From: Gammaproteobacteria bacterium Ga0077554
Lineage (GTDB): Bacteria; Pseudomonadota; Gammaproteobacteria; Ga0077554; Ga007554
DNA length: 64,000 nt
NCBI GenBank assembly: GCA_001464585.1
Contig: LNFF01000015.1
Coordinates: forward strand, 62,001 to 126,000
Direction of reading: 5' to 3'
Made by a program: the position numbers and the translations under genes
Part shown: positions 2,194 through 10,426 of the stretch, piece by piece
Layout of the letters: every line of letters starts with the position of its first letter
How positions within the stretch are numbered: the first letter of the stretch is position 1
Notes under the pieces: model-generated
Databases searched by the model: none
The model's input: the letters and a program-made list of their open reading frames with translations, nothing else
What the model was told of the DNA's origin: nothing

Positions 2194-2673
2194 ATGGCAG
2201 CATTCACAACGCTCTGGAACAACCACCCGAATATCAAGGGTGAGGAGCCGCTGCTCGATAAAGAAGACTATGAAAACCAATGCGCCATAAATCTCTACGC
2301 TGCATTTGAGCGTTCAGGTGTTGACATCACAACGTTTCATGGTCAGCTTTCCTGGCAAAAAAGTAAACCGAAATACGCTATCCGCGCCCAGGAAGTTGCC
2401 AACTGGTTAGCAACGCCAAACGGTGTTATTGCGGGCAGAGTTCGGAAGTTTTCTGGTAAAGAGATATTCGACAAAATAAAAGGTAAACGCGGCGTCATCT
2501 TTTTCCAAAATTACTACGGTCCAGGAAATCAAGGTGATCATATTGATCTCTGGGATGGGCATCGTTTGACCCACCTTCGATCAATAGCGCAAATTTATCT
2601 GCGTTTTGGCCCGATCGGCTTTGGTTCGGATTATCGGAAAGCTGAGTCAGTCTGGTTTTGGACGGTGTTATGA
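2194..2673 (+). CDS. Tae4-like peptidoglycan amidase (type VI effector family)
   Basis: A 159-residue protein resembling Tae4 effectors, NlpC/P60-like DL-endopeptidases that cut the gamma-D-Glu to meso-DAP bond of peptidoglycan when delivered by a type VI secretion system. The sequence shows the expected catalytic pattern: Cys30 in ENQCAINLYAAF, followed far downstream by GDHIDLWDG with His116 and Asp118. There is no signal peptide, as expected for an effector needing a delivery machine; no type VI structural genes are in this window. The Shine-Dalgarno AAGGAG at 2181-2186 fixes the start. The stop overlaps the start of the next gene (ATGA). The gene lies inside an integron-like cassette, which suggests acquisition by transfer. 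Family assignment is from motifs and is fairly secure; in vivo delivery is inferred. Confidence 0.82.
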   Translation: MAAFTTLWNNHPNIKGEEPLLDKEDYENQCAINLYAAFERSGVDITTFHGQLSWQKSKPKYAIRAQEVANWLATPNGVIAGRVRKFSGKEIFDKIKGKRGVIFFQNYYGPGNQGDHIDLWDGHRLTHLRSIAQIYLRFGPIGFGSDYRKAESVWFWTVL

Positions 2674-5483: not shown

Positions 5484-6410
5484 TTAGCTTGGTCTGTTCA
5501 AAGTGGTGTCTATTACTTTACGGGTCAAGTGCGGCGCAAAAAGTTCAATAAACGCGTAAATATATCCCCGTAAATAATTTCCCCGGCGTATCCCGATGCG
5601 GGTGGTGCTGGACTCAAATAAATGCCCGGCGTCTATGGCACGTACATTCACGTCGCGTGCTGCATCAAATGCCATTTTTGCCACCAATCCCACGCCCATT
5701 CCCAGTTCTACGTAGGTTTTGATCACGTCAGAATCCAGTGCGGTAATCACAAAATTGGGGGTTAAGCCGCGTTCTTCGAAAGCTTTGTTGATTTTTGAGC
5801 GTCCCGTGAAGGAGAAATCATAGGTGACTATCGGGTAACGCGCGATGGCTTCCAGTGTCAAGGGTGATTCATCAAGCAGGGGGTGGTTCGGCGGGGTGAT
5901 GACGCAGCGGTTCCATTGATAGCAGGGCAGGGTGGCGAGGTCGTCGAAAGGTTCCAGTGCTTCGGTGGCGATGGCGAGGTCGGCCATGCCGTTGCGGACG
6001 AATTCAGTGACTTGCGCGGGATTACCCTGGTGGATGTGCAGCCGTACCTTGGGGTATTGCTCGCTGAACGCCTTTACCACTGGAGGCAGCGCGTAGCGGG
6101 CTTGGGTGTGGGTGGTGGCGATGGAAAGAACGCCGCCGGTTTCATTGGAAAACTCCATGCTTGCTTGCCGGATATTGTCTATGTCGCGTAAAATACGCCC
6201 TATCATCGCTAGCACCGCTATGCCGGGCGGGGTGAGACCCGTGAGGCGTTTACTCTTGCGTTCAAAGATCTGCACATTAAGCTCTTCTTCGAGGAGGCGA
6301 ATTTGTGTGCTGATACCGGGTTGGGCGGTATGCAATTGCCGGGCCGCACTTGAAATGCTGAAATTGCAGCGTACCACTTCATGTATATAGCGTAATTGTT
6401 GAATATTCAT
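5484..6410 (-). CDS. cysB: LysR-type regulator CysB
   Basis: A 308-residue transcription factor controlling sulfur assimilation, normally activating when sulfate-limited in response to acetylserine. The N-terminal helix-turn-helix (MNIQQLRYIHEVV ... TAQPGIS) and the effector domain are strongly CysB-like: IATTHTQARYALP, LPCYQWNR, TGRS, DADVIKTYV-type DSDVIKTYVELGMGVG and FAPHLTRKVID. It is about 16 residues shorter than E. coli CysB, ending just after the last conserved helix. It is transcribed away from the TSUP-sulfite reductase-cysH genes, so it most likely controls them from the AT-rich shared intergenic region, and probably itself. Confidence 0.95.
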   Translation of the reverse strand: MNIQQLRYIHEVVRCNFSISSAARQLHTAQPGISTQIRLLEEELNVQIFERKSKRLTGLTPPGIAVLAMIGRILRDIDNIRQASMEFSNETGGVLSIATTHTQARYALPPVVKAFSEQYPKVRLHIHQGNPAQVTEFVRNGMADLAIATEALEPFDDLATLPCYQWNRCVITPPNHPLLDESPLTLEAIARYPIVTYDFSFTGRSKINKAFEERGLTPNFVITALDSDVIKTYVELGMGVGLVAKMAFDAARDVNVRAIDAGHLFESSTTRIGIRRGNYLRGYIYAFIELFAPHLTRKVIDTTLNRPS

Positions 6411-6537: not shown

Positions 6538-7311
6538 ATGGAATGGGGATACACGGTAGCGGGCCTGGTGGTGGGTTTTGTTGTGGGCCTGACCGGCATG
6601 GGTGGTGGGGCGTTGATGACGCCGATACTGATCCTGTTTTTCAACATTTCTCCGGCGCTCGCCATAGGCACGGATTTGCTGTTTGCCTCTATTACCAAGG
6701 CCGGTGGCATGGTGGTGCATGGCAGGCGCGGCAACATCGAGTGGAAGGTCGTCAGGTTGATGGCGATGGGCAGCATTCCGGCGGCGGCGATTACCGTGCT
6801 GGTGCTACAGCAGTACAGTTATTCGGGCGATACTAAAAAATTATTGACCACGGCGTTGGGGGTTGCTTTGCTGCTGACCGCGCCGGTGGTGCTGTTCAAA
6901 GGCTATCTGGCGAATTTTGCCCACACCCGATTGAAGCTGGGGGCTTTTGTTCATTGGCGACCCGCAGTGACAGTGGCGGTGGGTGCCGGGCTGGGTATAT
7001 TGGTAACCCTGTCTTCGGTGGGGGCTGGGGTGCTGGGTACCATGATATTATTTTTTCTGTATCCCCACATGACGGCGGTACGGGTTGTGGGGACTGACAT
7101 TGCCCATGCGGTGCCGCTCACGGCGGTGGCGGGGTTGGGGCATCTGCAGATGGGTAATGTGGATTTTGCATTGCTGGGAAGTTTGTTGGTCGGCTCATTG
7201 CCAGGTATTTATGTCGGCAGCCATTTGAGCAGCCGTGTTCCTGAAAAAGTGTTGCGGCCCATTTTAGGTACATTGCTGTTATTATTTGGTGCCAAGTTTG
7301 CTTTTTCTTAA
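6538..7311 (+). CDS. TSUP (TauE/SafE) family anion carrier
   Basis: A 257-residue integral membrane protein of the TauE/SafE/TSUP family with about eight hydrophobic segments arranged as two similar halves: GLTGMGGGALMTPILI near residues 18-33 and VTLSSVGAGVLGTMILFF near 160-177 are the paired signature loops. Family members move sulfite, thiosulfate, sulfoacetate or related anions. It is the first gene of a unit followed by a siroheme reductase and an APS-type reductase and faces cysB, so sulfite export or sulfur-anion uptake is the likely job. Direction and substrate are inferred from neighbours. A TATAAT -10 lies 46 bases upstream of the start. Confidence 0.9.
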   Translation: MEWGYTVAGLVVGFVVGLTGMGGGALMTPILILFFNISPALAIGTDLLFASITKAGGMVVHGRRGNIEWKVVRLMAMGSIPAAAITVLVLQQYSYSGDTKKLLTTALGVALLLTAPVVLFKGYLANFAHTRLKLGAFVHWRPAVTVAVGAGLGILVTLSSVGAGVLGTMILFFLYPHMTAVRVVGTDIAHAVPLTAVAGLGHLQMGNVDFALLGSLLVGSLPGIYVGSHLSSRVPEKVLRPILGTLLLLFGAKFAFS

Positions 7312-7372: not shown

Positions 7373-9670
7373 ATGATTAACACAGAACGTCTGGTGAATG
7401 AAGAAGAAATTGGCCGCTATGATGATGCGGTGCAGTCTTATCTGAACTTGCAGATTGATCCTGATCGCTTCATGTCGATTCGCCTGCAACATGGCGTATA
7501 TGGCCAACGCCAGGACGGTGTAAACATGATGCGCGTCAAGATTCCGGGCGGCAACATGAACGCTGGGCAGTTGGTTGCGATTGCTGATGTCATGGAAAAA
7601 TACGTGGATCATCCGGTGGTGCATATTACTACGCGCCAGGACTTTCAGATTCATTACGTGCCGCTTGAACACACGCCAGCAGCGATGCGTCGCCTGGCGG
7701 ACGCCGGGTTGACGACGCGCGAGGCGTGCGGCAACACGGTGCGCAATATTACTGCGTGCCCGCTGGCGGGCGTGTGTCCGCGTGAGCATGTTGATATTAC
7801 GCCGTTGATGGAAGGCGCAGCAACGCACTTTCTGCGTCATCCGCTCACGCAGCATTTGCCGCGCAAATTCAAAATGAGTTTTTCTGGCTGCGAGGCGGAT
7901 TGCGCGCAAGGCATGATGCACGATCTGGGCGTGGTCGCGGTGCAAAAAAATGGCCGTTACGGCTTCAAAGTGTTGGCTGGCGGGGGTCTGGGCCACAAGC
8001 CGCGTGAAGCAATCACGGTTGATGAGTTTGTTGAAGAGCGCGATTTACTGGCCAGTATTGAGGCGGTTGTGTCGTTGCACCACCGTTATTCTGACCGCAA
8101 GCGGCGCGCCAAGGCGCGGATTAAATTTCTCGTGGAAAAATTTGGCGCGCAAGGTTTTATTGATAAATATAAAGACGAGTTTGCCCGTACTAAAGTGGCG
8201 TTGGCCGATAAGCCGCATCCCGTGGGTGTATGGAGTGGCGGTAAGCCCGGCCCCGATTGCGGTATGGGCGCGCCGCGCCAAACCCTGGCGCAGAAGCAGC
8301 CGGGGTTGTTTGTGGTGCCGATCAGTATCCCGATTGGTGACATCACGCAGGCGCAATTGCGCGGTATTGCCGCGCTGATGAACGATACGGGCATCACGGA
8401 TATTCGTACCACACAGGATCAGAATTTGATGCTGGTAAATGTGCCACAGGCACAGTTGACGGCGGTGCGCACTGCGTTGGCTGCACTAGGTTTGGGTGAG
8501 CCGAAAGCAGGTGATGATGTGGTGGCGTGCCCCGGCACATCGACGTGCCGTTTGGGCATTACGTCGAGCAAGATCATCGGCACTAAAATCAGCGGCGGCG
8601 CGGCAGACTTGCGGATCCGTGCCAGCGGTTGCCATAACGGTTGCGCGCAACCCGAAACCGGCGACATCGGCATTTACGGCGAAGGCAATCGCCTGCATGG
8701 CAAGCTGGTGCCGCACTATCAAATGTATTTTGGCGGCGACGGCCGTGCTAATGGCGGGTTGGCGCTTAAAGGCCCCTCTGTTCCCGCCGCGCGCGTGGAA
8801 GCAGCGATTGCGCGTGTGCAAGACACCTATGCGCAAGATCGTCAGGACAGCGAAACTTTTTTCAACTGGACGCGCCGCCACGGCGCTGCTTATTTCAAGG
8901 AATTGCTGCAGGATATTACTCACGTCACACCTGAGCAATTGGCGTCGGTAATGAACGACCATGGCGAGACGCAGGACTTTAAAGTGTTGCAACTGGGCGG
9001 TGGTGAGTGCGCAGGCGCGGCGCAGGAATTTGTTGCCGCGCATTTTGCCGAAGCTGCGTATGAGCGCGACTGCCGCAACTCATTTGCGGCGCAGCATAAA
9101 TCTATGGAAGCACTGGAATGTGCCGAAGCGATTGGCCGTCTGGTCGGTGAGTCACTGCTGTTTTCGTCAGGTCGCCCGGCGGTAACCGGGTTGCCGGAGA
9201 TCGCTGCCATATTAAAAGATTCGTTGTCGCCGCAGGATGCAGCATTGAGCCAACAATTGGCGGGCTTTGCCAGCACCATCACGCAGCTTAAAGAGTCTTT
9301 TGATGAGCACGCCTATGCCACGCTGGTGGCCGGGCAGGACGCCTGGATCGCCGAGGCCGCGCGCGCCTGCCTGACGCTGGATCGTCAGCTTAATCTTACT
9401 GTGTCGATTACGGCGCCGCCTGTTACCAAGGTGATTCCGAAGGTGGTGGATCTGTCCACCTATGGCTGCCCGTTGCACTACCTGAAGGCGCGCAACGCGT
9501 TGCACAACCTGTCAGAGGGCGCTGTGGTAGATTTTCTGCTGGAGTCAGGTGAATCGACCCAGCAAGTGACGTCGAGCCTGGAAAGCGATGGGCATCGTGT
9601 GCTGTATAAGGAAGAGCGCGGTAGTACGACGCGTATCACTGTAAAAAAAGCTGCGCGTGCTGCGGCATAA
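7373..9670 (+). CDS. Siroheme sulfite/nitrite reductase fused to a C-terminal TusA-like domain
   Basis: A 765-residue fusion. Residues 1-500 form the two-repeat nitrite/sulfite reductase fold that reduces sulfite to sulfide by six electrons on a coupled siroheme and [4Fe-4S] centre. The canonical cluster cysteines are present in the second repeat (CPGTSTC, Cys386/Cys392; CHNGC, Cys420/Cys424). The first repeat carries the same spacing (CPLAGVC, Cys129/Cys135; CEADC, Cys173/Cys177). Residues 520-680 are a mostly helical linker with no family I recognise. Residues 690-760 look like TusA: DLSTYGCPLHYLKARNAL, with the persulfide-type Cys699-Pro. Neighbours cysH and cysB support assimilatory sulfite reduction; no cysJ flavoprotein is adjacent, so ferredoxin may be the donor. 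GGGAG precedes the ATG. Confidence 0.9.
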   Translation: MINTERLVNEEEIGRYDDAVQSYLNLQIDPDRFMSIRLQHGVYGQRQDGVNMMRVKIPGGNMNAGQLVAIADVMEKYVDHPVVHITTRQDFQIHYVPLEHTPAAMRRLADAGLTTREACGNTVRNITACPLAGVCPREHVDITPLMEGAATHFLRHPLTQHLPRKFKMSFSGCEADCAQGMMHDLGVVAVQKNGRYGFKVLAGGGLGHKPREAITVDEFVEERDLLASIEAVVSLHHRYSDRKRRAKARIKFLVEKFGAQGFIDKYKDEFARTKVALADKPHPVGVWSGGKPGPDCGMGAPRQTLAQKQPGLFVVPISIPIGDITQAQLRGIAALMNDTGITDIRTTQDQNLMLVNVPQAQLTAVRTALAALGLGEPKAGDDVVACPGTSTCRLGITSSKIIGTKISGGAADLRIRASGCHNGCAQPETGDIGIYGEGNRLHGKLVPHYQMYFGGDGRANGGLALKGPSVPAARVEAAIARVQDTYAQDRQDSETFFNWTRRHGAAYFKELLQDITHVTPEQLASVMNDHGETQDFKVLQLGGGECAGAAQEFVAAHFAEAAYERDCRNSFAAQHKSMEALECAEAIGRLVGESLLFSSGRPAVTGLPEIAAILKDSLSPQDAALSQQLAGFASTITQLKESFDEHAYATLVAGQDAWIAEAARACLTLDRQLNLTVSITAPPVTKVIPKVVDLSTYGCPLHYLKARNALHNLSEGAVVDFLLESGESTQQVTSSLESDGHRVLYKEERGSTTRITVKKAARAAA

Positions 9671-9691: not shown

Positions 9692-10426
9692 ATGAGTCTG
9701 GACGCATTGTTGCTGCAAAAAATTGACAACACCACAGCGCTGCTGCACAGCATCGCCGCGCAGTATGCACCCGCCACTTTTGCCAACAGCTTTGGCGTGG
9801 AAGACATGGTGCTGACGGATTTAATTAGCAAGCACGCGCCGACGATAGGCCTGTTTAGCCTGGATACCGGTCGCCTGCCCGAAGAAACCTACCAGCTCAT
9901 GCAGCAGACCATGGCGCATTATGGGGCCAAATATGGGATTGGCATACAGGCGTACTTTCCCGAAGCGGCCGCAGTGGAAGGCTATATCCGTGCGCACGGC
10001 CCCAATGCTTTTTATGACAGCGTGGAATTGCGCAAGCGCTGCTGCCAGATTCGTAAAGTGGAGCCGTTGAAGCGCGCCTTACAGGGTAAAAAAGCCTGGA
10101 TCACCGGTCTGCGCCGCGAACAGGCGCCCACGCGTAAGGATCTTGCCGATTCAGAATGGGATGCCGACAATCAGTTGCAGAAGTTTAACCCATTAATTGA
10201 ATGGACTAATTCTGACGTATGGGCGTATATACGCCACTTTGGCGTGCCCTATAACGCACTGCATGACAAGCACTATCCGAGCATCGGTTGCGCGCCCTGC
10301 ACCCGCGCCATCAGCGTTGGTGAAGATATCCGCGCGGGTCGTTGGTGGTGGGAAAATCCGGAAAGCAAGGAGTGTGGCTTGCATGCCCGTGATACTGCGG
10401 TAAGCAAGAAAACTGCTGCCGCATGA
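9692..10426 (+). CDS. cysH: APS/PAPS reductase CysH, [4Fe-4S] (APS) type
   Basis: A 244-residue cytoplasmic reductase that converts adenylyl-sulfate to sulfite using thioredoxin. The adenylation-fold loop SFGVEDMV (33-40) and LDTGRLPEETY (58-67) are intact. Cysteines at 117-118 (KRCCQIRK) and 200/203 (GCAPCTR) are the four ligands of the [4Fe-4S] cluster that marks APS-preferring enzymes, and Cys228 in ECGLH is the catalytic thiol. It follows the siroheme reductase by 21 bases in the same orientation, giving consecutive steps APS to sulfite to sulfide. No ATP sulfurylase gene is in the window. Confidence 0.95.
   Translation: MSLDALLLQKIDNTTALLHSIAAQYAPATFANSFGVEDMVLTDLISKHAPTIGLFSLDTGRLPEETYQLMQQTMAHYGAKYGIGIQAYFPEAAAVEGYIRAHGPNAFYDSVELRKRCCQIRKVEPLKRALQGKKAWITGLRREQAPTRKDLADSEWDADNQLQKFNPLIEWTNSDVWAYIRHFGVPYNALHDKHYPSIGCAPCTRAISVGEDIRAGRWWWENPESKECGLHARDTAVSKKTAAA

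Follow-up and report, generated by a model that had tools for sequence, protein, structure and literature searches.

A siroheme-type sulfite reductase with a doubled cysteine set, joined through a HEPN-fold domain to a TusA-like sulfur-carrier domain

According to the accepted picture, assimilatory sulfite reductases (SiRs) arose by duplication and fusion, followed by the loss of one cofactor site (PMC10229431). The siroheme-coupled cluster is recognized by the motif CX5CXnCX3C, and of the two siroheme-cluster sites of DsrAB, one is functional and the other structural; in Fsr, C472 is the bridging cysteine and sulfite is bound by R355, R423, K460 and K462 (PMC10229431). Links between sulfite reductases and sulfur carriers have been described as well, as one class of SiR-ThiS-E1 operons always includes SirA, and actinobacteria have SiR fused to ThiS (Iyer et al. 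2006, PMC1779556). Furthermore, four assimilatory SiRs have been reported, by a sole source, to form zero-valent sulfur as their direct product (Cao et al. 2026, PMC13188885). In the open-access literature searched, no description was found of an SiR-TusA fusion, of an SiR-HEPN protein or of a Mariprofundus SiR with TusA, which is weak evidence of absence.

The fusion gene and its neighbourhood

The gene described here lies in a window of 64,000 nucleotides, by which we mean the whole stretch of DNA that was analysed, and its features are listed in Table 1. Pfam searches with the 765-aa protein revealed two stretches matching NIR_SIR, two matching NIR_SIR_ferr and a single TusA match. The CysH gene starts only 21 bases downstream of the fusion gene, and the CysB-type regulator, the TSUP permease and CysH as neighbours indicate sulfate assimilation as the setting of the gene. 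A frameshift or assembly artefact behind the fusion was excluded by the presence of the unbroken open reading frame in seven family genomes and in many others. Elsewhere in the window, a Tae4-type T6SS amidase effector gene (2194-2673, forward strand; PF14113, 1.8e-19) is followed by a small membrane-protein-like ORF (2658-2906), which might encode an immunity protein.

Table 1. Features of the fusion gene and of its neighbours, with positions in the window
Feature	Position	Strand	Basis
CysB-type LysR regulator, divergent	5484..6410	-	NF009326 (CysB) 442 bits, cut-off 436; NF009327 489 bits
TauE/TSUP sulfite-exporter-type permease, upstream	6538..7311	+	PF01925, 2.1e-46
Predicted two-cluster sulfite reductase-HEPN-TusA fusion gene	7373..9670	+	ATG to stop, 765 aa
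First reductase repeat	7499..8188	+	Pfam NIR_SIR_ferr 43-110 and NIR_SIR 119-272; fold match over 10-509
Predicted sulfite-binding R54, R124, K165, K167 (and R88), invariant	7532..7873	+	Comparison with Fsr R355/R423/K460/K462 (PMC10229431)
First-set cysteines 129, 135, 173, 177 (CX5C...CX3C), predicted to ligate an additional [4Fe-4S] cluster	7757..7903	+	Conservation, alignments
Second reductase repeat (about residues 308-445)	8294..8707	+	Pfam, further sequence comparison
Second-set cysteines 386, 392, 420, 424, canonical siroheme-[4Fe-4S] ligands	8528..8644	+	Sequence, conservation
Cys546, in the GECAG loop that links the reductase core to the HEPN domain	9008..9010	+	Invariant, also in proteins without TusA
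HEPN-fold helical domain (about residues 549-677)	9017..9403	+	2hsb, Z 14.6, rmsd 2.4, 120 residues
TusA domain (residues 691-759) with Cys699-Pro700	9443..9649	+	PF01206, E 5.8e-10, 39.3 bits, cut-off 28.6
cysH-type APS/PAPS reductase	9692..10426	+	NF002537 272 bits, TIGR02055 250 bits, both above cut-off

None of the curated equivalog cut-offs (CysI, sir, NirA, nitrite reductase) was passed by the protein, the best score being 229 bits with NF007126 against a cut-off of 523. An AF2 model, computed from a 71-sequence alignment and containing no cofactors, had a mean pLDDT of 91.7 and a pTM of 0.84, and residues 10-509 of this model resembled NirA, NiR and SiR in VIA-align comparisons (Z 30-39). 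Among solved structures, plant NiR and Mycobacterium NirA were the best matches both by sequence and by fold. Although these matches would suit a nitrite reductase unconnected to sulfur, we regard such an assignment as highly improbable in view of the cysB, TSUP permease and cysH neighbours (in the cluster analysis, 57 loci have cysH as the next gene), and also because the only other NIR_SIR protein of the genome, an 819-aa frame which we infer to be NirB, already has a NirB-like length and layout.

Two cysteine sets in one reductase chain

An earlier note, made from the sequence of the window, had described a doubled CX5C plus CX3C pattern in the reductase, and all eight cysteines are indeed where it placed them. 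In an alignment of 116 homologs, which is partly redundant since the same or near-identical species were obtained twice and whose rows are thus not all independent, Cys173 and Cys177 of the first set were cysteine in every row, Cys129 in 115 (with one gap) and Cys135 in 114 (one gap, one Val). The second set was conserved to a similar degree in the same 116 rows, with Cys386 and Cys392 present throughout, Cys420 in 115 and Cys424 in 114, the remaining rows showing gaps or X. Comparison of the two repeats as profiles brought the two cysteine sets into register (hhalign probability 99.3, E 2.6e-20). Double-set homologs were found in Pseudomonadota (Nitrosospira, Gallionella, Mariprofundus) and on contigs named Nitrospirota, Nitrospinota and Omnitrophota; the genome-contig scan took the best 80 of 586 relatives, so that the spread of the family is undersampled.

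In contrast, none of 16 single-set two-repeat reductases checked carried cysteine at the four first-set positions, which were occupied by D/E/T, A/I/T/D, A/S/T and R/A, respectively, whereas their second set was complete. Chance occurrence of the first-set cysteines was excluded by their near-complete conservation, together with their total absence from the single-set relatives. In a phylogeny of the reductase core, an analysis which the earlier note had proposed, a single branch (SH-aLRT 85) separated all double-set rows from the single-set ones, albeit in a quick tree with several long branches. Judged from these comparisons, doubling of the cysteine set characterizes the family as a whole.

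When a 74-residue segment from the first repeat was compared with solved structures, Fsr-type enzymes were the best matches. The first-set cysteines aligned one-for-one with Fsr C428, C434, C468 and C472, which hold its siroheme-coupled cluster, and R124, K165 and K167 aligned with Fsr R423, K460 and K462. The second cluster suggested in the earlier note is therefore well supported as a prediction, the first set being invariant and aligned both with the second set and with the Fsr cluster cysteines. Retention of these cysteines for folding, zinc binding or disulfides, with no cluster held, would fit the other residues found in single-set relatives (mostly D, A, S or A, R) and the fact that the common two-repeat enzymes function with one cluster (PMC10229431); we nevertheless consider it unlikely, since the exact CX5C...CX3C spacing, the invariance and the one-for-one alignment to the ligands of a solved siroheme-coupled cluster all argue for cluster binding.

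In the second repeat, the counterparts of the Arg/Arg/Lys/Lys set are P/L, D/N, D/G and a variable position (R/T/K). The absence of the Arg/Lys set from this repeat points to one complete catalytic site and a cluster motif in a degenerate site, and in the absence of sulfite-binding residues the second site probably does not reduce sulfite. A true two-active-site monomer, in which both sites reduce sulfite, would be consistent with the completeness of both cluster motifs, but lacks any equivalent of the sulfite-binding residues in the C-terminal half and appears very unlikely to us. Most likely, as far as the alignments can indicate, the predicted first-repeat cluster sits in a site that is non-catalytic or serves electron transfer. 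The family looks like the fused form of the accepted scheme with both cluster motifs kept and, as it is present in cultured Nitrosospira and Mariprofundus, this intermediate is open to purification and examination. Of the two parts of the finding, the two-cluster motif is the firmer and the less expected one.

The HEPN-fold and TusA domains and their distribution

The region at about residues 520-680 had been described in the earlier note as helical and unassigned. Its helical nature was borne out, but it can be assigned, as its fold is that of HEPN domains; the Z score of 14.6 with 2hsb is to be read with the reservation that fold scores of helical bundles can reflect a general arrangement. 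Further HEPN chains matched the same domain of the AF2 model (residues 550-677) by fold in VIA-align, and Pfam HEPN (PF05168) matched three of 17 homologs (best E 1.3e-7), with no match in the window protein itself. A ribonuclease function of this domain was rejected, as the Rx4-6H pattern occurs in only 26 of 109 homologs and no R/H column is conserved. In the GECAG loop, which directly precedes the domain, the E-C pair was kept in 110 of the 111 rows that are ungapped at this point; the one deviating row is a truncated, aberrant frame. Conservation of Cys546 equals that of the cluster ligands, TusA-less relatives included, and the confidence of the AF2 model is lower around residues 541-550, which contain its loop. 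We suggest that Cys546 might act as a mobile relay cysteine.

The C-terminal TusA-like domain with a Cys-Pro motif at Cys699, likewise put forward in the earlier note, was recovered by the Pfam domain search above cut-off (Table 1), and the fold agrees, with residues 686-761 of the model resembling TusA/YeeD proteins (VIA-align, Z 10-12). Of the 63 homologs without a gap at Cys699 in the alignment, 62 carry cysteine and one reads X. In all seven family genomes that carry the gene, the fused copy is the sole TusA, and the eighth family genome (78% complete) has neither the fusion gene nor a TusA. DsrC/TusE (PF04358) was found in none of these eight genomes and at most one DsrE domain in each, indicating that the TusA-TusBCD-TusE relay of E. 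coli is absent.

More widely, TusA is fused or adjacent to the reductase in two distant clades and on one Nitrospirota contig, and the reductase-core tree shows no fewer than six changes in its presence (starred branches), which marks TusA as a module that is often gained or lost. Many close double-set relatives (Nitrosospira, Gallionella) carry no TusA, showing that it is not needed for the reductase; their reductase-HEPN core is the same, as is their cysH neighbourhood. The double cysteine set and the TusA fusion are, on this distribution, separable traits.

In one gammaproteobacterial group, a run of nine to eleven A residues is located exactly at the HEPN-TusA junction. The reductase and TusA frames are joined in three loci with A11 (L049, L095, L161) and in one with A9 (L047), and in five further loci with A9 or A10 (L051, L090, L097, L162, L165) the reductase frame stops just after the run and TusA follows in the -1 frame (run positions, for example, L097:8021 and L051:8063). 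The junction run is the only A/T run of at least nine in each of these nine loci (45-67% GC), which represent about six distinct species. Transcriptional slippage or a -1 frameshift at the run is likely, as a candidate mechanism read from these sequences, to produce enzyme with and without TusA, the rival explanation being that homopolymer indels broke the HEPN-TusA fusion in these relatives. The window gene has no A run at the junction.

Most Mariprofundaceae genomes carry the fused TusA along with one or two extra TusA genes, which in many cases lie at a distance of about 4-10 kb. The Mariprofundus operon, which is variable, starts with a threonine-synthase-like PALP gene, ThiS, cysteine synthase, ThiF and SiR-HEPN-TusA, followed by a radical-SAM/sulfate-symporter ORF, CysH, DsrE2, TusA, CysD and CysN (L117:1690-13946 and the same region of L106, L122 and L113; DsrE2 and the free TusA in some), and likely represents a ThiS-thiocarboxylate cysteine route. 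The ORF directly after the SiR (L117:8307-10961, 885 aa) matches radical SAM at its N-terminus (33 bits) and a Na/sulfate symporter at its C-terminus (226 bits), an unusual combination in one ORF, with homologs in 18 loci.

A possible, if less probable, reading of these data is a two-cluster reductase that frees sulfide, its TusA being either tethered for an unrelated Moco or tRNA sulfur job fed by a cysteine desulfurase or merely co-expressed. E. coli TusA takes part in Moco synthesis and the window genome has a moaA-moaC-moaD-moaE cluster; moreover, the reductase-HEPN core and the cysH neighbourhood are unchanged in TusA-less relatives, as this reading would have it. The recurrence of fused or adjacent TusA at several unconnected places in the tree argues against this reading, as do the addition of ThiS, ThiF and cysteine synthase in the Mariprofundus locus and the retention of the fused TusA by Mariprofundaceae, most of which have another TusA gene.

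Proposed sulfur route and comparison with known systems

The domain make-up, the two invariant cluster motifs, the single complete active site and the sole genomic TusA are supported by the sequence comparisons. With regard to cluster binding, cluster role and sulfur transfer, which we infer, we lean somewhat towards a one-site assimilatory sulfite reductase with a second, structural or electron-transfer cluster, from which sulfur is partly handed over to the tethered TusA. The neighbouring CysH would make the sulfite that the assimilatory-type fusion protein reduces, with catalysis taking place at a single siroheme-[4Fe-4S] centre on Cys386/392/420/424 and sulfite being held by R54, R124, K165 and K167 of the first repeat. 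A further [4Fe-4S] cluster, perhaps accompanied by a structural siroheme, would be bound by that first repeat at a pseudo-symmetric site whose role may lie in structure or electron transfer; the arrangement would parallel that of DsrAB but be confined to a single chain. Some or all of the reduced sulfur may be taken as persulfide by the tethered acceptor, plausibly first on Cys546 in its mobile loop and then on TusA Cys699, before entering biosynthesis. Such a hand-over is made plausible by the sole genomic TusA, the Mariprofundus operons and the published precedents (PMC1779556, PMC13188885) taken together, suggesting that sulfur may be passed on inside the protein rather than released as free sulfide. 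More speculatively, and in our opinion doubtful, the enzyme could be a single-chain counterpart of DsrAB in which the second siroheme-cluster site was never lost, persulfide passes via Cys546 to TusA and the share of enzyme with TusA is set by slippage in some relatives. A sulfite reductase with its own carrier would offer a direct test of assimilation via bound zero-valent sulfur versus free sulfide.

Like the assimilatory siroheme reductases (E. coli CysI, plant SiR/NiR, Mycobacterium NirA), the protein consists of two repeats in a single chain and has in common with them the second-repeat CX5CXnCX3C motif, the Arg/Lys sulfite-binding set and the fold. Those enzymes, however, lost the first-repeat cluster motif (PMC10229431) and are without HEPN or TusA domains. 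With DsrAB, the family shares two cluster motifs per repeat pair, and in whole-protein profile comparisons the second half matched DsrB and the first half, weakly, DsrA. Unlike DsrAB, which has two subunits with inserted ferredoxin domains, it is a single chain with no Fer4 match in Pfam, it carries the canonical CX5C...CX3C and not the DsrB motif, and its genome has no DsrC. The family thus resembles DsrAB in layout and departs from it in several of the features tested.

Fsr (group I) resembles the first repeat here in having the Arg/Lys set together with four cluster cysteines, but it is a single repeat with an F420H2-oxidase half, whereas the present family has two repeats and no such domain. 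Concerning sulfur carriers, the linkage to a sulfite reductase recalls the SiR-SirA(TusA)-ThiS-E1 operons and the actinobacterial SiR-ThiS fusions (PMC1779556), and the Mariprofundus relatives share the SiR-SirA-ThiS-E1 operon style (PMC1779556). In contrast to the SiR-ThiS fusions, the carrier fused here is TusA, attached via a HEPN domain. Finally, the Cys-Pro motif, the Pfam match and the fold are those of TusA/SirA/YeeD sulfurtransferases, although in this genome, unlike in those systems, the only TusA is the C-terminal domain of a sulfite reductase.
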